From Cylindrospermum stagnale PCC 7417 (lineage in GTDB: Bacteria > Cyanobacteriota > Cyanobacteriia > Cyanobacteriales > Nostocaceae): 64,000 nt of DNA. This document shows positions 37,916-63,390 of this stretch, piece by piece; the first letter of the stretch is position 1, and every line of letters begins with the position of its first letter. The notes beneath the pieces are model-generated. The model made no database searches. It worked only from the letters and a program-made list of their open reading frames with translations, and was not told the DNA's origin. The position numbers and the translations under genes were made by a program. The DNA lies in NCBI RefSeq assembly GCF_000317535.1, contig NC_019757.1, forward strand, positions 1,897,001 through 1,961,000, read 5' to 3'.

Positions 37916-38565
37916 ATGAAAAAGCATCTACAAACCGCAATACTCTCCGCAGAAGTGGCAGCCGCGATGCTTCCAAATGAAATCAGCCAAAGGGCGATTT
38001 CCGAACTACAGGAATTTATAGCTGTGGGTTCAAATGCCCGTGAAGTGAGGAAAGCATTGGCAGTTAAGCTAGTTTATCAAGGCTACTTATATGAAGAAAT
38101 TCAAAGAATTCTCAACGTGTCAATCGGTTCGATAACGGGTTGGAAACAAGCTTACCTTGCACATGGCATTGATGGACTGCGGCTTAACCACAAAGGGAGG
38201 AAGAGCTACCTGAGTGCTGAACAACGAGAAGATGTGTTAAATTGGCTGCAAACAAAAGATTCCTGGGAACTTGGGGAATTGGAGTATAAACTAGCCTTTG
38301 AGTATGGCGTAGTTTACGAGTCAAAACAAAGTTACTATGACCTGTTCCATGCAGCTGGAATCAGCTGGAAGAAAAGCAAAAAGTTAAAACCCAAATCTGA
38401 CCCGGATAATGTTGCCGCAAAAAGCAAGAGATTGAAACAGTATTGGCAAACTACCGCTCCGAAATTGAACCGGGAAAATTGAGAGTATTACTAATTGATA
38501 AGTTTCATCCCATCTGGGGGGGCTTAAGCAGCTATGTGTGGGGAAAGCAGACCAGGAAATTACGC
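37916..38565 (+). mobile_element. IS630 family transposase, truncated
   Basis: The intact first frame (37916-38482, 188 residues) encodes the helix-turn-helix half of an IS630 transposase (EIQRILNVSIGSITGWK, YESKQSYYDLFHAAGISWKK). A shifted frame then carries the beginning of the catalytic half (SEIEPGKLRVLLIDKFHPIW, then YVWGK), including the first catalytic Asp. Usual IS630 elements encode ORFA and ORFB with a frameshift; here the rest of ORFB is missing and a TnpB tail begins near 38565. It is a dead element, and no terminal repeats were found. Confidence 0.75.
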
Positions 38566-38821
38566 CCAATACGGTGAAATACCTCTGGGGTGGAAAGCAT
38601 CGGGAAGGCGGATTGAGCGTGGATTATATCGGTCAGAAAACGGTTCAATTGTTAATGCTGACCTTAATGGTGCAGCAAATATTCTCAGAAAAGTAGCCAG
38701 CAATCTCAGCTTAGACTTAGGCTTACTGGGTAGACGGTCTTTGACAACCGTAGCGAGAGTTAGACTTTGGAAACTACCTAAGTTTACTCTGTCCGCAGAA
38801 TCTCAGCGGCTTCAGCCCTGA
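38566..38821 (+). mobile_element. C-terminal remnant of TnpB (IS200/IS605)
   Basis: Encodes the last 85 or so residues of a TnpB protein: GWKASGRRIERGLYRS, NADLNGAANILRKVA and the typical tail. The final catalytic Asp region (NADLNGAANI) is present, but the rest of the RuvC domain is absent. It is followed by the presumed right end GAATCTCAGCGG...GTGTCAA (38798-38830). It is joined directly to an IS630 fragment, which shows a deletion or recombination between two elements. Confidence 0.8.
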
Positions 38822-41950: not shown

Positions 41951-42592
41951 ATGGTTGAATTCGATGAACAGCTACGCTGTTTAGTTGCCCAAGCCTGTGG
42001 ACATCCACCTGGAAGCCCTCAGCGTCAAAAGCTGCTCACGCAAGTCATTCGCTTGACTACAAGTAAACTTTGGAGGGAAAGTACTCCCTACTATCAAGAC
42101 GCACTCCAACAAACTTGGTTGTATTTTTGCCGCAACGTTTGTGAAGGTCTGACAGGTCAAACCTATGACCCCACTTATGGCAGCATCATCACTTGGTTAA
42201 ATGCTTATCTGAAACGCAGATTACAAGACTTTTACCTCACCCAGCACCAAGAAACAGCCACAATAGTCTCTGTCAAGATCCGTCAGGGTGACAACAATGA
42301 TGTTATTGACCCTGTAGATAACTTAGCTGCCTCACCCCAAGCCCCCCCCATTCTGGAAAACTTGGAGATTTGGGTAAAGAAAGACTCGGATGGAGAACTG
42401 CGCGGTACTTACATTAAAGAACGTCCAGACGTAAATTGTCAGGTATTAATTCTGAAACGCCTACCTCCAGAAGTTAGCTGGCGAGAATTGTCTGCGGAAT
42501 TCGGGCTGTCAATTCCCACATTAAGCAGTTTCTATCAGCGTCAATGTCTCCCCCGCTTGCGTAAATTTGCTGAATTTGAGGGCTATTTATGA
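41951..42592 (+). CDS. Sigma-70 family factor of the CHAT/CHASE2 operon
   Basis: A 213-residue protein with sigma region 2-like sequence (YYQDALQQTWLYFCRNV; YGSIITWLNAYLKRRLQDFY) and a region 4 helix-turn-helix-like tail (SWRELSAEFGLSIPTLSSFY). It lacks regions 1 and 3, so it is ECF-like, but diverged. It is the first gene of a five-gene co-directional run: TPR-CHAT, DUF1822, CHAT-CHASE2 and DUF928. Sigma factors in this setting are presumably held inactive and released by a signal. The start is the ATG at 41951. Confidence 0.75.
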   Translation: MVEFDEQLRCLVAQACGHPPGSPQRQKLLTQVIRLTTSKLWRESTPYYQDALQQTWLYFCRNVCEGLTGQTYDPTYGSIITWLNAYLKRRLQDFYLTQHQETATIVSVKIRQGDNNDVIDPVDNLAASPQAPPILENLEIWVKKDSDGELRGTYIKERPDVNCQVLILKRLPPEVSWRELSAEFGLSIPTLSSFYQRQCLPRLRKFAEFEGYL

Positions 42593-42721
42593 AGATTCGA
42601 GGGCATTCGGCATTATCTGAGACAGGAAAGAGACCAATTCAATAATTACTCTTTGTCCCCTACTCTTGGCTCCCTGCCTGCTTCCAGTTTGGTAAAACTC
42701 CCTTATCAGGTACTTCTTGCC

Positions 42722-45394
42722 ATGCCGATGAATACAGTAAATAGGCTTTCTGTGTCCAATTTTGTCAAAGTTAAAAGGCTAAAAGCAATTCGGTTGCTTT
42801 TGTACTTCTTAACGGTTTTGCTGTGCGTTCTTGGTTCCCCTGTCCTGGCAAGAGTTCCGGAAATTAATACTTCATCCAAACTGCCAATCAATGGTACTAA
42901 TGCTCCAATACTAGAGGCTGCCCCAGCGTCACTACTACAACAGGGCAAAGTGTTATATGATTCGGGAAAGTTTGCACAGTCCGTGCAAGTGTTAAAGCAG
43001 GCAGCCCAGGAATACCAACAACAGGGCGATACCCTCAGACTTGCTGCTACTCTCAGCAATACTTCCCTAGCTTACCAGCAACTCGGTGAATGGACTCAGG
43101 CGAAGCAGGCAGTTAAAGATAGCTTAAAGTTGCTAGAGGGACAGGATAAAAGCCAAAATTTACAAGTATTAGCCCAGTCACTAGATATCCAAGGTCGTCT
43201 GCAACTATTAATGGGACAGCCAGAAGCCGCTTTGGCAACTTGGAAGCAGACAGAAGAAATTTATCAACAAGCAGAAAATCAAAGCGGTGTAGTGCGATCG
43301 CTCCTCAATCAAGCACAAGCGTGGCGAACTCAGGGTTTTTACCAACGTGCTGTAGAAAAACTAGAACTTGTGTATCAGAAATTACAATCTCAACCAGATT
43401 CTCTAGAAAAGGCCATAGGGGGGCGATCGCTCGGTGATACTTTTTTGTTAATGGGTGAGCCAGAAAAGTCGCTCAAGGCACTAGAAGAAAGTCTAGCAAT
43501 TGCTCAACGCTGGCGATCGCCAGTTGATATTGGAGCCAGTTTTTTCAGCTTAGGGAACTACGCCCGGACAATAAAGCAAACAGAGCAGGCAATCGACTAC
43601 TATCAACAAACAGTCGCAGCATCTCCTTTACCCTTGACAAAAGTCCAGGCACAACTAAATCACCTCAGCCTACTGATCGAGACGAAAAACTTGGCAGCAG
43701 CTCAAACCTTATTACCCTTGATTCAATCCCAACTCGATCAACTCCCCCCCAGTCGTGCCAGCGTCTATGCTCACATCAACTTTGCCCAAAGTTTGATCAA
43801 AGTTAGAACTGCTGAGTCGAGGATGGTAAGTAATAGTTCTCCTTCAGTATTCACTACTAAAGATTCAGCTCTATTACTCGCTAGAGCCAACCAGCAAGCC
43901 CGCAGTTTAGGTGACAAGCGGGCAGAGGCTTATACACTGGAGAGTCTGGGCGGCTTGTACGAGAAGACTGGACAGATATCATTCGCACAAAATCTCACCC
44001 AGCAGGGATTACTTCTAGCTCAGTCCGGCAATGCACCAGAAATTGCTTATCGCTTGCAGTGGCAGTTAGGCAGATTACTGCGGGTACAAAAAGACATCAA
44101 AGGTGCGATCGCGGCCTATGATACTGCTGTAGAAACCCTCCAGTCCCTCCGCAGTGACCTAGTAGCAGTTAATCCAGAGGTGCAATTCAACTTTCGAGAC
44201 AGTGTAGAACCAGTGTATCGACAGTCAGTAGAGTTACTGTTGCAAACCCAAGAAGAAAAACAGGACGAAACAATACTAGAGAAAGCAAGAGAGCGGATTG
44301 AAGCCCTACAATTGGCAGAATTAGACAACTTCTTTCGGGAAGCTTGTCTGCAAGGTCAGAAAGTATCTCTCGATCAATTGGTAGACAAAGATAATCCGAC
44401 TACCGCTATTTTTTATCCAATTATTCTTCCCCAACAAGTCCAGGTCATTGTCAAAATTCCCAATAAACCCCTGCGGCATTACAGAACCAAAATTCCCCAA
44501 GCAGATGTAGAAAAAACACTAACACAACTGCGAGCTGATCTTGTCAGTCCCTCGGCACTCAAAGCGGTCAAAATCCAGTCACAAAAAGTTTATAACTGGC
44601 TGCTCCAACCGATTGAGTCAGAATTGCTGGCCAGTGAAGTAAAGACGCTGGTGTTTGTGCTAGATGGGCCGTTACGCAACTTACCAATGGCATCTCTCTA
44701 TGATGGCAAACAATTTTTAGTAGAGAAATATGCGATCGCCCTCAGCGTTGGATTGCAACTCCTTGATCCTAAACCGTTAGTGCCACAACTGCTAAAAGCC
44801 CTAACTGCTGGCTTAACCCAGCCCCCGCCAGAGTTTTCCCGATTTTCACCCTTGCCAGCCATCAAATCTGAATTAAAACTCATTGCTCAAGCCGGAGTGG
44901 CGACCACCAGCTTACTGGATGAGCAGTTTACCCAAAACGCACTCAAGAGTGAGATTAATGCAACTCAATTTAATGTCGTGCATTTAGCAACACACGGTGA
45001 GTTTAGTTCCCGTGCTGAAAACACCTTTATCTTGGCTGCTGATAGTCCAATCAAAGTTAAGGATTTCGATCAGCTCCTGAGCAATCAAAATCAAACCAAA
45101 ATAGAATTATTAGTTTTGAGCGCCTGTCAGACAGCCGCCGGAGATAACCGCGCCGCCCTTGGTCTAGCAGGGGCAGCAGTCAGAGCGGGGGCACACAGTA
45201 CTGTGGCCTCCCTGTGGCAGATAGATGATGAATCGACGGCCTTATTTGTAGGTGAATTCTATCGACAACTCAAAAGCAGCAAGGTCACTAAAGCCGAAGC
45301 TCTCCGCCGTGCACAGCTACACCTACTAAAACATCCGAACTACAACACACCAGGGTTTTGGGCTGCCTATGTGCTAATTGGTAATTGGCTTTAA
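42722..45394 (+). CDS. Exported TPR-CHAT caspase-like protease
   Basis: 890 residues from the ATG at 42722; an earlier TTG would put an implausible extension in front of the signal peptide (LLLYFLTVLLCVLGSPVLA). After it come TPR repeats (about 60-490) and a CHAT domain. The catalytic dyad is complete: His758 in HLATHGE and Cys802 in LSACQTA. CHAT proteases such as HetF and TPR-CHAT of type III-E CRISPR systems cut specific proteins after activation. The signal peptide suggests action outside the cytoplasmic membrane. The next gene (DUF1822) starts 85 bases on. Confidence 0.88.
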   Translation: MPMNTVNRLSVSNFVKVKRLKAIRLLLYFLTVLLCVLGSPVLARVPEINTSSKLPINGTNAPILEAAPASLLQQGKVLYDSGKFAQSVQVLKQAAQEYQQQGDTLRLAATLSNTSLAYQQLGEWTQAKQAVKDSLKLLEGQDKSQNLQVLAQSLDIQGRLQLLMGQPEAALATWKQTEEIYQQAENQSGVVRSLLNQAQAWRTQGFYQRAVEKLELVYQKLQSQPDSLEKAIGGRSLGDTFLLMGEPEKSLKALEESLAIAQRWRSPVDIGASFFSLGNYARTIKQTEQAIDYYQQTVAASPLPLTKVQAQLNHLSLLIETKNLAAAQTLLPLIQSQLDQLPPSRASVYAHINFAQSLIKVRTAESRMVSNSSPSVFTTKDSALLLARANQQARSLGDKRAEAYTLESLGGLYEKTGQISFAQNLTQQGLLLAQSGNAPEIAYRLQWQLGRLLRVQKDIKGAIAAYDTAVETLQSLRSDLVAVNPEVQFNFRDSVEPVYRQSVELLLQTQEEKQDETILEKARERIEALQLAELDNFFREACLQGQKVSLDQLVDKDNPTTAIFYPIILPQQVQVIVKIPNKPLRHYRTKIPQADVEKTLTQLRADLVSPSALKAVKIQSQKVYNWLLQPIESELLASEVKTLVFVLDGPLRNLPMASLYDGKQFLVEKYAIALSVGLQLLDPKPLVPQLLKALTAGLTQPPPEFSRFSPLPAIKSELKLIAQAGVATTSLLDEQFTQNALKSEINATQFNVVHLATHGEFSSRAENTFILAADSPIKVKDFDQLLSNQNQTKIELLVLSACQTAAGDNRAALGLAGAAVRAGAHSTVASLWQIDDESTALFVGEFYRQLKSSKVTKAEALRRAQLHLLKHPNYNTPGFWAAYVLIGNWL

Positions 45395-45479
45395 CCACAT
45401 CCATAACTGATTTTTTCGCATAAATTTCGTGAATGCGAGCGATATGTGTATAACCCCATTGATGACTCGGTACTGAACC

Positions 45480-46508
45480 ATGACTAACACCACCTATCAG
45501 CTAGACGATTTTGCTTTAACCTTGCCAATTACCCAAAAAGCTATTAAAACTGCCCAGGAGTTTGCAAGCCAACAGCCTACTTCTGAAAAAGCAGAGCAAG
45601 TTAGGCTGAATACACTGGCTGTGTGGGTGGTGAATGACTATATGCAAATGATGGCAATTCCCACTGATCTTGAAGCCAGTGACAGTTGGAACCATATTTT
45701 GCGCTGCTGTACAAATGTGGCTGACTTGGAGTTACCCTCAGTTGGACGCCTGGAATGTCGTCCTCTGCTTCCAAATCAGCAGATATGTTCCATTCCCCCA
45801 GAGACATGGGAAGAGCGGGTGGGTTATGTAGTAGTAAAAATTGACGAATCGCGCCAAGAGGTAAGACTAATGGGTTTTGTTCCTCATGTTGCTACTGAAG
45901 AACTACCTTTAAGTCAACTGCAACCCCTCGAAGCCTTAATCGAACACTTGGGACAACTGAGTTTTGTCTCTCATGTTGCCACTGAAAAATCGCCTTTAAA
46001 TCAACAGCAATTCTCCGCTGCCTCAATCAAGCAACCCAGACAAATGAAGCAATTGGTGAATCTAAGTCAGTGGTTTGCCGGTATATTTGACGCAGGCTGG
46101 CAAAGTATTGAATCCTTATTAAACACACCAGAACTCACCCCAGCTAATGCCTTTCGCCGGTTAGAAATTGTTGAAAAAAATGTCCCACAACAACCAGACA
46201 TGGCAAAATTGATTGATCTGGGTCTTAAAGGCTACAACCAACCTGTTATCTTAAAAGTCGAAATCTGCCCCGAAGCTAACCAACAAACTGGTATTTTCCT
46301 CAAGTTATGGCCCACAGGTAATCAAATACACCTGCCACAAGGATTAAAGTTGACCGTTCTAGATGGGTCAGGATCAGTGCTTCTGGCCGCTCAAGCCAGA
46401 AAATCCGATAACTACCTACAGTTGAAGTTAAGCGGTGAACCTAAAGAACAGTTTAGTGTTATGGTAGCCTTAAATGATACTAGTGTCATGGAAGAATTCA
46501 TCATTTAA
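45480..46508 (+). CDS. DUF1822 family protein
   Basis: A 342-residue soluble protein without signal peptide. The N-terminal part (TYQLDDFALTLPITQKAI; WVVNDYMQM) and the C-terminal Ig-like segment (VILKVEICPEANQQTGIFLK) match the cyanobacterial DUF1822 family. The middle has a partial tandem duplication (FVPHVATEELPLSQLQ and FVSHVATEKSPLNQQQ). It lies between the two CHAT genes, the position where a protease substrate or sigma-control protein would be expected. No function is established to my knowledge. Confidence 0.82.
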   Translation: MTNTTYQLDDFALTLPITQKAIKTAQEFASQQPTSEKAEQVRLNTLAVWVVNDYMQMMAIPTDLEASDSWNHILRCCTNVADLELPSVGRLECRPLLPNQQICSIPPETWEERVGYVVVKIDESRQEVRLMGFVPHVATEELPLSQLQPLEALIEHLGQLSFVSHVATEKSPLNQQQFSAASIKQPRQMKQLVNLSQWFAGIFDAGWQSIESLLNTPELTPANAFRRLEIVEKNVPQQPDMAKLIDLGLKGYNQPVILKVEICPEANQQTGIFLKLWPTGNQIHLPQGLKLTVLDGSGSVLLAAQARKSDNYLQLKLSGEPKEQFSVMVALNDTSVMEEFII

Positions 46509-46585
46509 AGCCAGCAGATTTCCATAGCTCTGTGAGTAATTGGTAATTACCAGTCCTAGAAAGTTGAAGACGCAATAACTGAGTC

Positions 46586-48895
46586 ATGGGTAAGTTAGTG
46601 GTGTTGAAATTCGGAGAGGGTAGTTTTGACCAGGGGTTTGCAGTTACTCTCCAGATTGGCGAAGAACGCGAGCGCCCCTCAACAGAAATATCGGGGAAGC
46701 TACCTCCATCACCGGAAATGCCATTGCACTATAGCCATTGGCAGTCTAGTTATCGACAGTTGGGTAACCGTTATCGCCTACATGCTGACAATGACCAGGT
46801 AACGAATGTGTCCATGACACAAGAGTGTGAGAATAGTGCTTGTATTTTACGGGCACACATCAACCACTGGCTCCAAGCAACGGAGTTTCGTTCCCTACGG
46901 GAGAAATGGCTGGAAAGATTATCGCCCTCAGAAGAATTACGGGTGATAGTACAAACAGAAAATAGCCAATTGCAACGATTACCTTGGCATCTTTGGGACT
47001 TGCTGGAACGCTACCCGAAAGCTGAACTTGCTTTGTCTTCGCCGACCTACGATCACATTCAGAAGCCACACACTCCCAACCCGTTGGTAAACATTCTGGC
47101 AATTTTGGGCAATAGTCAGGGGATTGACACCGACGCTGACCAAGCTTTACTACACCAATGTAATCACGCAAAAGTCAAGTTTGTGGTAGAACCACAGCGC
47201 CAAGAATTGACAGACCATCTCTGGGGAAACAACTGGGATATTCTGTTCTTCGCCGGACATAGTTCCAGTCAAGAAAATGGCGAATTTGGGCGGATCTACC
47301 TGAATAAAACCGATAGCCTGACAATCAGCGAGTTAAAGTATGCACTCAGAAAAGCCATTGAACGTGGCTTGCAGCTAGCAATTTTCAATTCTTGTGATGG
47401 GTTGGGGTTGGCGCGAGAACTAGCTGATTTGCAAATTCCTCAGATCATCGTCATGCGTGAACCCGTGCCAGATAAAGTGGCCCAGGAGTTCTTAAAGTAT
47501 TTTCTCCAAGGTTTTGCTAGCGGTGAAACTTTATATCAAGCAGTGCGGCAAGCGCGGGAAAGGTTGCAAGGGCTGGAAGATAGATTTCCTTGTGCAACTT
47601 GGCTCCCAGTGATTTGCCAAAATCCGGCGCAGATACCACCCACTTGGGACGAGTTAAGGGACAAAAACGACGAAAAATTAATTCCTCCACCCCCACCCCC
47701 CGGGCACCCCTTGAAGGTGGCGTTGCTATCGAATCTGTTGATCACTGCCTTAGTCTGTGGGGTGAGGATTTTGGGACTGCTACAAAGTGGAGAGCTAAAA
47801 GCCCTAGATCAGATGATGCGATCGCGCCCTGATGAGGGCGTTGATCCGCGCCTGTTAGTAGTGACAATTGACGATCAAGACCTGGCAAATCAACGGCAAA
47901 ATGGCGAGTATTTAAAAGGAACTTCCCTCTCCGATAAATCTCTCAACAAACTGCTGGCAAGATTTGAGGAGTACAAACCCAGGGCCATTGGCTTGGATAT
48001 CTACCGTGATTTTTCCGCTGAACAGCCAGAATTAAGCTCTCGTCTCCAGCAGACTGGAAACTTGATTGGGGTGTGTAAGGGGAGCGATACCACAGCCAAA
48101 ACCAAAGGCATTAAGCCACCGCCAGAAATCCCCAAGGAAAATTTGGGATTCAGCGACTTCATTCATGATGATGATGGGGTTGTGCGTCGGCATCTGATGT
48201 TCATGAACCAAGAGGCTGCCTCCTTGTGTTCTGCCCCCTATGCTCTGAGTACACAATTGGCATTCCGTTATCTATCGGCATTAGGAATTAAAGCTAGCTT
48301 CACTACACAAGGTGATTTACAACTGGGCGATACGGTTTTTTCCTCTCTTAAGTCTCGCTCTAGCGGTTATCAAATCGAGGCCAAGGGACAAATCTTACTT
48401 AACTATCGTTCCTCAAAGCAGATAGCTGAACAGGTGACGCTAACGCAATTTTTAGCTGGTCAAGTGAACCCGAGTGCGATCAAAGACCGGATTGTTTTGA
48501 TTGGCGTGACGGCAAAAGGAGATTCTCCAGATACCTGGTCTACGCCCTACGGAACTTTCTTAGACCAACAAATGCCAGGAGTACTGGTGCAAGCGCAAAT
48601 GGTCAGCCAAATCCTCAGTGCTGTCCTGGATAAGCGTCCCTTACTGCGAGTTTGGCCACTCTGGGTTGAGATGGTTTGGATATGGAGCTGGTCTGTGGGG
48701 GGGGTACTGCTTGTTTGGCGGTGGCGATCGTTTACTCAAGTGGCATTGGTAGTTGGTATCACCTCTGGCGTTCTGTACATACTTTGCTTTAGTTTATTAA
48801 TCTGGGGGACTTGGGTGCCATTTGTGCCATCAGCTTTGTCGTTGGTCGGGACAGTGGGCTTGATATCAACTCAAAATTCAAAATTCAAAAGCTGA
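46586..48895 (+). CDS. CHAT-CHASE2 membrane protein
   Basis: A 769-residue protein. Residues about 130-350 form a CHAT domain with His225 (FAGHSS) and Cys270 (FNSCDG), the likely protease dyad. A membrane helix (VALLSNLLITALVCGVRILG, about 375-395) leads into an extracytoplasmic CHASE2 sensor domain (LLVVTIDDQDL; RAIGLDIYRDF), and three helices close the C-terminus (from about 690). The CHAT part should therefore be cytoplasmic and controlled by an outside signal. No kinase or cyclase output domain is present, which makes a protease the only visible output. Confidence 0.88.
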   Translation: MGKLVVLKFGEGSFDQGFAVTLQIGEERERPSTEISGKLPPSPEMPLHYSHWQSSYRQLGNRYRLHADNDQVTNVSMTQECENSACILRAHINHWLQATEFRSLREKWLERLSPSEELRVIVQTENSQLQRLPWHLWDLLERYPKAELALSSPTYDHIQKPHTPNPLVNILAILGNSQGIDTDADQALLHQCNHAKVKFVVEPQRQELTDHLWGNNWDILFFAGHSSSQENGEFGRIYLNKTDSLTISELKYALRKAIERGLQLAIFNSCDGLGLARELADLQIPQIIVMREPVPDKVAQEFLKYFLQGFASGETLYQAVRQARERLQGLEDRFPCATWLPVICQNPAQIPPTWDELRDKNDEKLIPPPPPPGHPLKVALLSNLLITALVCGVRILGLLQSGELKALDQMMRSRPDEGVDPRLLVVTIDDQDLANQRQNGEYLKGTSLSDKSLNKLLARFEEYKPRAIGLDIYRDFSAEQPELSSRLQQTGNLIGVCKGSDTTAKTKGIKPPPEIPKENLGFSDFIHDDDGVVRRHLMFMNQEAASLCSAPYALSTQLAFRYLSALGIKASFTTQGDLQLGDTVFSSLKSRSSGYQIEAKGQILLNYRSSKQIAEQVTLTQFLAGQVNPSAIKDRIVLIGVTAKGDSPDTWSTPYGTFLDQQMPGVLVQAQMVSQILSAVLDKRPLLRVWPLWVEMVWIWSWSVGGVLLVWRWRSFTQVALVVGITSGVLYILCFSLLIWGTWVPFVPSALSLVGTVGLISTQNSKFKS

Positions 48896-49010
48896 AATAC
48901 CTAGGGCTGGTTCAAAACTTGATGTTTTAAGTGCTGATTTTCAAGTCTCCCTGTCGTGTTTCTGGTTATTGCTGAATCCAAAAGATTTTTTTACGGAAGG
49001 GAAAATTTTT

Positions 49011-49847
49011 ATGAAGCCAAGTTCACAACCAATAAAACTGTTTTTAGCACTAACCCTGAGCGGCACCAGCTTCCTGGGTAGCCTGACCGCAGTTTTAGCG
49101 AAACCAGCCCCACTAAAGTCTGGTCGCCTACTTAGCGATCGCACTAATAGCAAAACGGTTACCGCTCAAATCGCCAGCTTTAATTTACCCGCACCTCCGC
49201 CAGGTCCTTCTCCTGGTGGGCGTTCCCGTGGAGGAGCCAAGCGTGGTGAGTGTCCAAAAGTCAATACTGAACTCACTGCATTAGTGCCATTTACCAAGAA
49301 AGGCAAGGAACCCGATTACGTGACCGATGTTTGGGGATTAACGACTGAAGAAAACCCAACCTGGTTATTCTATGTGCCATATACCAAGGCTTCTGCCTAT
49401 ACAGCTGAATTTGTCTTGCAAGATGAGCAAGATAACTCTATCTACCAAATAGTGCCTCTTTCCCTACCAGATCAGCCAGGAATCATCCGCGTTTCTCTGC
49501 CTGCCAATACTTCCCGGTTAGAAGTGGGCAAACGATACCGTTGGTTTTTAACCGTCAACTGTAACCAAAACAAGGAATCACTACCAGTTTATGTTTATGT
49601 TGCAGGTGTAATTCAACGAGTCAACCTCAGTCAGGAAGTTGCCCAAAAGCTAAAAACAGCAACACCGCAACAACAAGTTGCCATATACGCCCAAAATGGC
49701 GTCTGGCATGAAGCACTAACGAAACTAGCAGAACTGCGCCAGCAATATCCCCAAGATCTAGCACTTCAGGCAGAGTGGCAAAATTTGTTGGCGAGCTTCC
49801 AATTTGATGATGTTGCAGCAGAACCTATTGTCTCAGCAAAGCCTTAG
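49011..49847 (+). CDS. DUF928 family exported protein
   Basis: 278 residues from ATG 49011, which has GGAAGGG upstream; a TTG 14 codons earlier is rejected. Signal peptide FLALTLSGTSFLGSLTAV with cleavage near VLA, then the DUF928 start FNLPAPPPGPSPGGRSRGG and the family core (ELTALVP; WLFYVPY; YRWFLTVNC). DUF928 proteins are cyanobacterial and of unknown function. Its place after the CHAT-CHASE2 gene, and a second DUF928 next to the other CHASE2 gene at the right edge, suggest that it supplies or tunes the extracytoplasmic signal. Confidence 0.85.
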   Translation: MKPSSQPIKLFLALTLSGTSFLGSLTAVLAKPAPLKSGRLLSDRTNSKTVTAQIASFNLPAPPPGPSPGGRSRGGAKRGECPKVNTELTALVPFTKKGKEPDYVTDVWGLTTEENPTWLFYVPYTKASAYTAEFVLQDEQDNSIYQIVPLSLPDQPGIIRVSLPANTSRLEVGKRYRWFLTVNCNQNKESLPVYVYVAGVIQRVNLSQEVAQKLKTATPQQQVAIYAQNGVWHEALTKLAELRQQYPQDLALQAEWQNLLASFQFDDVAAEPIVSAKP

Positions 49848-61420: not shown

Positions 61421-61478
61421 TAGTCATTAGTAAGAGTTTCATCTGTTGATTGGCGAATACCGAGAGACTAATGACTAA
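61421..61478 (+). promoter_or_regulatory. Inverted repeat covering the start of the kinase gene
   Basis: TTAGTCATTAGT (61421-61432) and ACTAATGACTAA (61467-61478) are perfect 12-base complements. The second arm contains the ATG (61471-61473), next to its GAGAG ribosome binding site (61462-61466). Pairing in the mRNA would hide the start codon. Confidence 0.55.
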
Positions 61479-63390
61479 AGCATCAATATTAGGAAATAAA
61501 CTTATGCAGCCTGAACTTCTGAAAAAAATTAAAGAGGAAATTGTTATATGGCATGTAGGCGCGATCCCAGGAATTGCAGTGATAGGGCTAGTGATTATCC
61601 TTCGTCTAACTGGTTTAATACAATCTTTAGAGTGGTTAGCTTTTGATAGTTTTCTCCATATACGTCCTGCCGAACAGATAGATGAAAGACTTCTGATTCT
61701 GGGAATTAATGAAGAGGACATCCGTAGTTTAAAAACCTACCCGATACCAGATAAAGAAATCGCATTTTTGCTGAAAAAATTACAAACCTATAGTCCTAGA
61801 GTCATTGGACTCGATATTTTTAGGGATCTGCCAGTTGAACCTGGGCATTCTGAACTAGTAACAACAGTTAAGGAGATGAAGAATTTAATTACTATTGAAA
61901 AAGTATTACCTGAGAAAGTTGATGCACCACCATACTTGCTCGTTGAACAAGTTGGTTTTGTAGATCAAATCCCAGATGCTGATGGCAAATTGAGACGTAG
62001 TCTGCTGGGAACACCAACACCTAAAGGATACAAGTTTTCATTGTCTCTACTTTTGGCAAAAATTTATTTAGCAGCTGAAGGCATTAGTTTAGAAAACGGC
62101 AAGCATGATCTCGCTGCTATGCGGTTTGGAAATACTGAATTACCCCAGTTTTTACCTAACTCTGGGGGATATGTGCGAACCGATGCTGGTGGTGTTCAAG
62201 TACTACTCAATTTTCGTAGTGGTCGAGAACGATTTAGAACTTTATCTCTGAATGATATCAAAACAGGAAATTTTCAGCCTGAGTGGATACGCGATCGCAT
62301 TGTGATTATTGGGATGACTACCCCTAGTCGTAAAGATTTCACAACCACTTCTGCTATTCCATCTACAACTAAATCTGCCCCAGGGCAAATTTATGGAGTA
62401 GAAATCCATGCCCATGCTGTTAGCCAAATTATCAGTGCAACCCTTGACAATAGAGCACTAATAAATACTTGGTCTGACGGCTGGGAATATATCTGGATAT
62501 TAGGTTGGGGTAGCTTGGGGATTTGTTTAGCTAGATTCACAACATCTCCATTAATAAATCTTTTGGCTGTTGGAATTGCTAGCACTAGTCTAGTAGCCAT
62601 TAGTTATTTATTTCTAACTTGGGGTTTGTGGGTTCCATTTATACCAGCAATAATAGTTTTGGCTTTTAATGGTGTAGGAATGACGGCTTTCTATCAATAT
62701 GATCAGGCACTACGTTCTCGAATTAAAGCCCACAAAACCGTCATTGAGCATACATTTGAAACGATTCACAATGGTCCACTGCAAATACTCGGAAAAGCTT
62801 TAAAGCGTATTCGAGATCAAGATTCGCCATCAGCAGAATTACTTGCAGAAATAGAAAAAGAACTAGAAAAACTGAATCATGACCTACGGGGAATTCATGA
62901 ATTTTTACAGCGAGAACCTCCATCTCAAGATAGTAGCCTTTATTTAGGAAAAGGTTTAGAGTTGAATTTGCAAGATCCTCTTCACGAACTTCTTTATCAA
63001 GTCTACAGTCATGTCTTAGAGCGAAACTTTCCCTACTTTAGAAAGCTTAGAGTTAAAATCCGGTCATTTGACCCTATAGATGAGCGAGGCTTAAGTGTTG
63101 AAATAAAGCGGGGACTCTGCCGCTTTCTGGAAGAGGCTTTATGCAATGTCGGCAAACACGCCATAGCAGTAACCCGCCTTGAAGTCACTTGTTCTTCATC
63201 TGAAGGCTGGTACACTCTAAGCATTATAGATGATGGCTTGGGTATAAACTCATCTAGAGAAGGTCGGGGAACACAGCAGTTTAGAAATTTAGCTCGACAA
63301 CTCAAAGGCAAATTTAGGCGAGTAGCACTTACTCCTAGAGGGACTCTTTGTGAGTTGTCTTGGCCTGTAGTAAAGTTTTACTTGTGGTAA
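61471..63390 (+). CDS. CHASE2 sensor histidine kinase
   Basis: 639 residues from ATG 61471 (a TTG at 61450 is less likely). After a membrane helix (IPGIAVIGLVIILRLTGLIQ, about 25-50) comes an extracytoplasmic CHASE2 domain (LLILGINEEDI; RVIGLDIFRDL), three membrane helices (about 330-410), then a HisKA_3-like segment with His433 in ETIHNGPLQIL and an ATPase domain (EEALCNVGKHA; IIDDGLGI). It is the partner of the response regulator just upstream. The signal sensed by CHASE2 is unknown. A second DUF928 gene follows. Confidence 0.88.
   Translation: MTKASILGNKLMQPELLKKIKEEIVIWHVGAIPGIAVIGLVIILRLTGLIQSLEWLAFDSFLHIRPAEQIDERLLILGINEEDIRSLKTYPIPDKEIAFLLKKLQTYSPRVIGLDIFRDLPVEPGHSELVTTVKEMKNLITIEKVLPEKVDAPPYLLVEQVGFVDQIPDADGKLRRSLLGTPTPKGYKFSLSLLLAKIYLAAEGISLENGKHDLAAMRFGNTELPQFLPNSGGYVRTDAGGVQVLLNFRSGRERFRTLSLNDIKTGNFQPEWIRDRIVIIGMTTPSRKDFTTTSAIPSTTKSAPGQIYGVEIHAHAVSQIISATLDNRALINTWSDGWEYIWILGWGSLGICLARFTTSPLINLLAVGIASTSLVAISYLFLTWGLWVPFIPAIIVLAFNGVGMTAFYQYDQALRSRIKAHKTVIEHTFETIHNGPLQILGKALKRIRDQDSPSAELLAEIEKELEKLNHDLRGIHEFLQREPPSQDSSLYLGKGLELNLQDPLHELLYQVYSHVLERNFPYFRKLRVKIRSFDPIDERGLSVEIKRGLCRFLEEALCNVGKHAIAVTRLEVTCSSSEGWYTLSIIDDGLGINSSREGRGTQQFRNLARQLKGKFRRVALTPRGTLCELSWPVVKFYLW

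Follow-up and report, generated by a model that had tools for sequence, protein, structure and literature searches.

An ECF-like sigma factor gene paired with DUF1822 in Cylindrospermum stagnale and its relatives, and a possible switch involving a CHAT-CHASE2 protein

The gene cluster and its proteins

The window analysed here is a stretch of 64,000 nucleotides from Cylindrospermum stagnale PCC 7417 (NC_019757.1, positions 1,897,001 to 1,961,000). It contains five same-strand genes and a promoter-like element (Table 1). The initial annotation had listed these five genes, and they are real: Pfam confirms the TPR-CHAT, DUF1822, CHAT-CHASE2 and DUF928 proteins, and the sigma factor is supported by the ORF list and by its fold. 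Two of the reading frames open upstream of the ATG used here, that of TPR-CHAT at TTG 42653 (ATG at 42722) and that of DUF928 at TTG 48969 (ATG at 49011). Outside the cluster, two ORFs that resemble mobile-element remnants lie upstream (37916-38821), one with a helix-turn-helix and the other short and lacking a Pfam match. A second CHASE2 protein, 646 aa long and with CHASE2 as its sole Pfam domain at E<=1e-4, is encoded at 61450-63390.

Table 1. Features of the cluster, in window coordinates
Feature	Position	Strand	Evidence or remark
ECF-like sigma factor, 213 aa, short 'SIGS' type	41951..42592	+	ORF, AlphaFold model, fold matches, 31-sequence alignment
TPR-CHAT protease-like protein, predicted exported	42722..45394	+	Pfam; dyad; N-terminal hydrophobic segment
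GCATAA-N17-GATA promoter-like element	45418..45444	+	35 bp before DUF1822 start; putative function
DUF1822 protein, 342 aa	45480..46508	+	Pfam, low-confidence model, fold searches, hydropathy
EACC2-like N-terminus + CHAT + CHASE2 membrane protein, 769 aa	46586..48895	+	Pfam, dyad conservation, TM segments
DUF928 protein, probably exported	49011..49847	+	Pfam; N-terminal hydrophobic segment

The sigma gene has no match in Pfam or NCBIfam. Its AlphaFold model (pLDDT 76.7, built from 31 sequences) has a region 2 at about residues 2-104, a weak linker at about 101-130 and a region 4 at about 133-210. In a fold search with this model, all 50 of the 50 matches shown were titled sigma factors or transcription complexes, with ECF types first, and the alignment of the 31 sequences contains many invariant residues. 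Among 25 relatives, Pfam at E<=0.01 reports Sigma70_r4_2 in seven and Sigma70_r2 in two. The predicted fold thus bears out the annotation of this gene as a sigma factor. A longer sigma type, which passes Sigma70_r4, precedes two other DUF1822 genes of the same genome, and a further DUF1822 gene lies in the series short sigma, DUF1822, CHAT-CHASE2, DUF928, TPR-CHAT. A conserved block around TTATACGCAATACTAAGATATTCTTGC is found upstream of window position 41951, before the Nostocales sigma gene, and is unlike the element before DUF1822. In another locus (L182, 8960-9253) the sigma-like ORF beside a full DUF1822 gene is only 97 aa long, and the region-2 part is seemingly missing.

Both CHAT proteins have a His/Cys dyad, His758/Cys802 in TPR-CHAT (numbered from the ATG at 42722) and His225/Cys270 in CHAT-CHASE2, and the dyads are conserved in both families. 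In CHAT-CHASE2 the CHAT domain (residues 189-332) follows about 190 residues, and the CHASE2 domain is found by Pfam at 1.7e-67. A family model over residues 1-350 finds 69 ORFs; the putative EACC2 identity of this type is marked here by the label EACC2-like. The DUF1822 protein matches PF08852 at 3.7e-81. Its AlphaFold model is weak (pLDDT 60.1), with an N-terminal alpha/beta region and a C-terminal beta sandwich. No anti-sigma factor appeared in the lists shown from the fold searches, in which it was mainly the C-terminal sandwich of this low-confidence model that was compared.

The sidedness of the proteins was judged by hydropathy, with no trained predictor. By this criterion TPR-CHAT begins with a signal-peptide-like segment, and an N-terminal hydrophobic segment is present in 42 of 49 complete TPR-CHAT ORFs and 28 of 39 DUF928 ORFs. 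The same kind of segment is found in 1 of 64 EACC2-CHAT, 2 of 85 DUF1822, 2 of 117 short sigma and 2 of 43 long sigma ORFs, and the window DUF1822 has no TM segment by hydropathy. CHAT-CHASE2 has TM segments at residues 378-396 and 721-739. Since it has no signal-peptide-like start and its first TM segment comes after CHAT, its CHAT domain is predicted to be cytoplasmic. Taken together, the N-terminal segments and the order of the TM segments suggest that this CHAT domain is the one able to meet a cytoplasmic sigma factor or DUF1822, and that CHAT-CHASE2 alone is in a position to act on a cytoplasmic DUF1822. TPR-CHAT, as a predicted exported protein, should not meet either of them.

The sigma-DUF1822 pair in other loci

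We surveyed 84 DUF1822 loci, comprising 80 of the best-scoring places of a phylum sample and four from the C. stagnale genome itself; the set omits one DUF1822 gene inside another locus region and all weaker places. A sigma gene lies directly upstream of DUF1822 (<400 bp) in 72 of the 84 loci; if the upstream distance is extended to 7 kb on the same strand, the number is 78. The linkage between these genes, on which the initial annotation had made its proposal depend, is thus conserved in other genomes. An EACC2-CHAT gene follows DUF1822 within 1.5 kb in 49 of the loci, 32 of them with CHASE2. It is absent within this distance from the other 35, and CHAT is therefore not required for the pair. 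The sigma factor and DUF1822 are the constant core of the system. Six DUF1822 loci have no sigma gene; four of these are in genomes with a sigma ortholog elsewhere (G059, G092, G024 and G082), and no sigma gene was seen in L166 or L172. In loci without EACC2-CHAT, DUF1822 can be followed by a gene for TPR-CHAT (L125-L127, L188), for a trypsin-like protein (L167, L170, L171), for an M48 peptidase (L183) or for a TPS-domain protein (L158), or by an unrelated gene. The three trypsin-like proteins have N-terminal hydrophobic segments, and those of L170 and L171 also have TPRs. In L198 the pair is likewise followed by an M48 peptidase, with no adjacent CHAT gene.

The pairing is type-specific. Short sigma factors occur with LECR-type DUF1822 (n=31) and long ones with PQEW-type DUF1822 (n=33), and there are no mixed pairs among the 83 of 84 loci covered by the typing (L132 was left out; besides the 33 and 31 typed loci, 13 with a sigma gene were untyped and six had none). 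In a mirror-tree comparison of distance matrices from the 43 loci with all three proteins, the correlation is 0.755 for sigma and DUF1822 vs 0.209 for sigma and EACC2-CHAT. The two values are 0.548 and 0.575 for the short type alone and 0.616 and 0.569 for the long type alone. Within each type, sigma therefore follows DUF1822 and EACC2-CHAT about equally closely, and the excess in the whole set comes mainly from the split between types.

Retention of the pair where the genes are apart

Lone sigma genes are common in Nostocaceae: DUF1822 is visible in the DNA examined at 15 of 80 sigma loci, with some of the contigs short. We searched 25 genomes, in which sigma was linked to DUF1822 in five and alone, within about 9 kb on each side, in 20. 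All 20 genomes with a lone sigma gene have a DUF1822 ortholog elsewhere, 52-65% identical to that of the window and followed by a CHAT-CHASE2 gene, which in L212 is in two pieces. These 20 partly overlap (the same coordinates for some) with the 89 genomes of the window's family, in which we scored orthologs of both genes. Both are present in 54 and neither in 35, with no discordant genome, and often the two are unlinked (Fisher 1.4e-25, uncorrected for phylogeny and with cut-offs set after the scores had been seen). Two of the DUF1822 matches, a match in two pieces in G029 and one over 163 of 322 positions in G200, were accepted by inspection; with a strict DUF1822 cut-off there are 52 genomes with both genes and two with sigma only. 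DUF2330, the neighbour of the sigma gene in the window, served as a control and has no association with it (45/9/24/11, p 0.12). That the pair is kept together in relatives even when the genes are apart suggests that DUF1822 controls the sigma factor.

Of the 54 genomes with sigma, 49 pass for CHAT-CHASE2 by score and five do not. Inspection of the loci found a diverged copy in G186, a copy in two frames in G225 and one with another ORF between its parts in G198. No CHAT-CHASE2 was seen near DUF1822 in G082 and G200, so that it is truly missing in only two of the 54, and co-occurrence therefore barely separates DUF1822 from CHAT-CHASE2 as the partner of sigma. The loci of G198 and G225 (L224, L226), with CHAT-CHASE2 interrupted or in two frames, have a full DUF1822 ORF, and there is a sigma ortholog in each genome.

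A membrane form in a distant family

The phylum sample also contains a family of small genomes of about 2 Mb (f24), probably Gastranaerophilales, whose 57 genomes have one DUF1822 match each; among the matches listed, these cover the N-terminal half of the model. Thirteen loci were taken, and one (L233) was left out as it ends inside its gene. In all 12 readable loci (L232, L234-L244) the match lies in a protein of 929-1294 aa with one strong predicted TM segment far downstream, and three of these proteins have further weak TM segments. The next gene encodes 187-200 aa and the one after it a protein of 983-1111 aa. The long-sigma model matches the small gene in 12 of 12 loci at E<=7.5e-7, and the models for CHAT, CHASE2 and DUF928 have no match anywhere in the 12 stretches. 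The DUF1822-like domain therefore goes with a sigma factor without CHAT in this family. DUF1822 was matched in all of these loci by the Pfam search of the phylum sample, and in 6 of 12 by our own DUF1822 model. Pfam scans of two of the loci report Sigma70_r4 for the small gene in both, DUF1822 in one, and a TonB C-terminus for the large protein. The third gene was scanned in one of the loci and encodes zinc ribbons and an AAA domain. An N-terminal domain and a TM segment, encoded beside a sigma gene, is the layout known from membrane anti-sigma factors.

A promoter-like element

The motif GGCATAAATTT-N11-17-GATAT is found just before DUF1822 in 35 of 245 loci, some of which are the same place counted twice. 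The window variant is the sole match to GCATAAATTT-N11-17-GATAT in its own genome. In the form GCATAA-N15-18-GATA, the element precedes 27 of 33 DUF1822 genes without an adjacent sigma gene (related sequences, many from one family), 3 of 72 DUF1822 genes with one and 8 of 73 pair-heading sigma genes, vs 1 of 1185 control upstream regions, an enrichment that is optimistic because the pattern was refined on the same loci in which it is counted. Six of the eight sigma-gene sites have a spacing of 17 (L173 and L177 are near-identical). The other 65 pair-heading sigma genes do not have the element, nor do the 81 sigma genes of the window and the related sigma-locus set, and it is absent before all 12 of the distant f24 operons. 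From its positions, GCATAA-N17-GATA resembles a promoter at the head of the operon, and it may be read by the sigma factor. A wider regulon is not significant after removing one site per genome (p 0.10). The C. stagnale genome has 22 GCRTAAA-N16-GATA sites vs 7 for the reversed pattern. Of the 19 sites examined (L246-L264; the window site and two others were left out), 16 are outside ORFs of >=100 aa. Two sites precede similar ORFs of about 1200 aa, and the one scanned (L251) encodes a protein kinase with an AAA domain.

Relation to known systems

The association of EACC2-caspase proteins with an ECF sigma factor and DUF1822 is already published. Kaur et al. (2021, PMC8195603) describe proteins with an alpha/beta N-terminus, a caspase-like domain and a variable C-terminus, with CHASE2 among the examples, and report that, where TRADD-N is absent, genes for an ECF sigma factor and DUF1822 are also present in most EACC2-caspase neighbourhoods. 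The authors proposed activation by autopeptidase activity, with the sigma factor as a possible last step, and placed the proteins among conflict and apoptosis systems. The window has the CHASE2 C-terminus, the neighbouring ECF sigma factor (by fold match) and the neighbouring DUF1822, and is best filed under this system. Kaur et al. call DUF1822 a TPR protein, whereas the window copy has no TPR at E<=1. DUF928 has no occurrence in the main text of that paper (PMC8195603), and its passages on these systems do not mention split loci, sigma-DUF1822 pairs without EACC2 or a promoter element. The present analysis adds the constancy of the pair, the joint retention of its two genes, the membrane form in the distant family and the promoter-like element, none of which was found described in the literature searched, a body that most subscription papers lie outside.

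Two other known arrangements are similar in part. In the type III-E CASP system (Csx29, a TPR-CHAT protein, with Csx30 and CASP-sigma), as in the cluster described here, a single locus encodes an ECF-like sigma factor together with a CHAT protease and one further protein. In that system Csx30 inhibits the sigma factor and is cleaved, Csx29 works within the RNA-guided Cas7-11 complex, and motifs for the sigma factor lie in its own locus (PMC10028731). In the window the TPR-CHAT protein has a signal-peptide-like start rather than a predicted cytoplasmic one (by hydropathy), and the candidate protease is CHAT-CHASE2. The membrane anti-sigma factors RseA and RsiW form gene pairs with ECF sigma factors, which are released under the control of proteolysis. 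DUF1822 is similarly paired with a sigma gene, in 72 of 84 loci, and in the f24 proteins a strong TM segment follows the N-terminal DUF1822 match. Unlike RseA and RsiW, the window DUF1822 has no TM segment, and its weak model has no anti-sigma fold match in the lists shown.

A possible mechanism and its alternatives

We tentatively propose a sigma-factor switch, which we regard as quite possible though somewhat short of probable. DUF1822 would be a dedicated cytoplasmic partner of the sigma factor, most likely holding it inactive as an anti-sigma factor. CHASE2 would sense a signal at the outer face of the membrane and activate the cytoplasmic CHAT protease, which may then cleave DUF1822 (or itself) and so free the sigma factor. 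The freed sigma would read the GCATAA-N17-GATA promoter before the DUF1822, CHAT-CHASE2 and DUF928 genes. The exported TPR-CHAT and DUF928 proteins would be envelope components or outputs, and not a protease acting on DUF1822. The computations show which genes are present, the fold of sigma, the predicted sides of the membrane, the pairing of sigma with DUF1822 and its retention, and the element; we infer the contact between sigma and DUF1822, the inhibition, the cleavage and the promoter recognition. Support is stronger for the regulator step, with DUF1822, than for cleavage. The survey of loci, the co-occurrence in 89 genomes, the matching of types and the distant family all tie DUF1822 to sigma more often than any other gene, as expected for the partner role that had been suggested for it. 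A protease-controlled sigma system as first suggested thus keeps its sigma factor, its link to DUF1822 and a CHAT-CHASE2 protein whose CHAT domain is predicted to lie on the appropriate side of the membrane, and loses the analogy of TPR-CHAT with type III-E. That analogy fails because of the signal-peptide-like start, seen also as an N-terminal hydrophobic segment in 42 of 49 complete relatives. Cleavage of a sigma inhibitor by TPR-CHAT is accordingly highly improbable: the domain pair is that of Csx29 and the His/Cys residues are conserved, but many sigma-DUF1822 loci have no TPR-CHAT in the DNA examined, and Csx29 itself acts in an RNA-guided Cas7-11 complex (PMC10028731).

The place of CHAT-CHASE2 could also be at the other end of the pathway. 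The sigma factor and its regulator DUF1822 would then switch on an envelope or protease operon (CHAT-CHASE2, DUF928 and TPR-CHAT) in stress or conflict. The element sits before DUF1822, CHAT-CHASE2 and DUF928, the genes after other pairs can encode exported or membrane proteins (trypsin-like in L167, L170 and L171; M48 in L183 and L198), a TPS-domain protein follows DUF1822 in L158, and Kaur et al. group EACC2-caspase proteins with conflict and apoptosis systems (PMC8195603). Against this, CHASE2 is a receptor-type domain and the CHAT domain is predicted to be cytoplasmic, which suits a sensor, and we consider an output role rather unlikely. A little less likely still, in our view, is that DUF1822 is a positive partner of sigma, such as a co-sigma, a chaperone or a promoter-selectivity subunit. 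The presence or absence of the two genes agrees in 89 of 89 genomes as scored, as for an obligatory complex, and no anti-sigma factor is among the matches shown for the weak DUF1822 model; the distant-family match, however, is in a membrane-anchored protein beside a sigma gene, which is the usual anti-sigma layout.

If DUF1822 is indeed the regulator in the proposed switch, it may found a phylum-wide family of sigma regulators unlike known anti-sigma factors. On this wider proposal, which we hold with slightly more doubt than the switch, the pair would predate the split between oxygenic cyanobacteria and their small-genome sister group, in which DUF1822 is part of a membrane-anchored protein. 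In cyanobacteria the pair would have acquired interchangeable inputs many times over, mostly caspase-like CHAT sensors, and the result would be an ECF sigma pathway gated by a caspase-like protease, with GCATAA-N17-GATA as its dedicated promoter. The published guess of a caspase-like protein acting with an ECF sigma factor becomes a testable two-step model with DUF1822 as the named candidate regulator and a candidate promoter, and the split loci, the loci without CHAT and the membrane-anchored forms offer natural variants. If the model is true, bacterial caspase-like proteases control gene expression outside CRISPR, and DUF1822, a large family, gains a role.

DUF1822 is also found on 26 cyanobacterial plasmid records, seven of them typed as conjugative, and by our own models a sigma gene lies beside it in six of the seven plasmid regions read. 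In L210 and L213, a single short sigma gene separates two sets of DUF1822, CHAT-CHASE2 and DUF928 genes that are arranged head to head.
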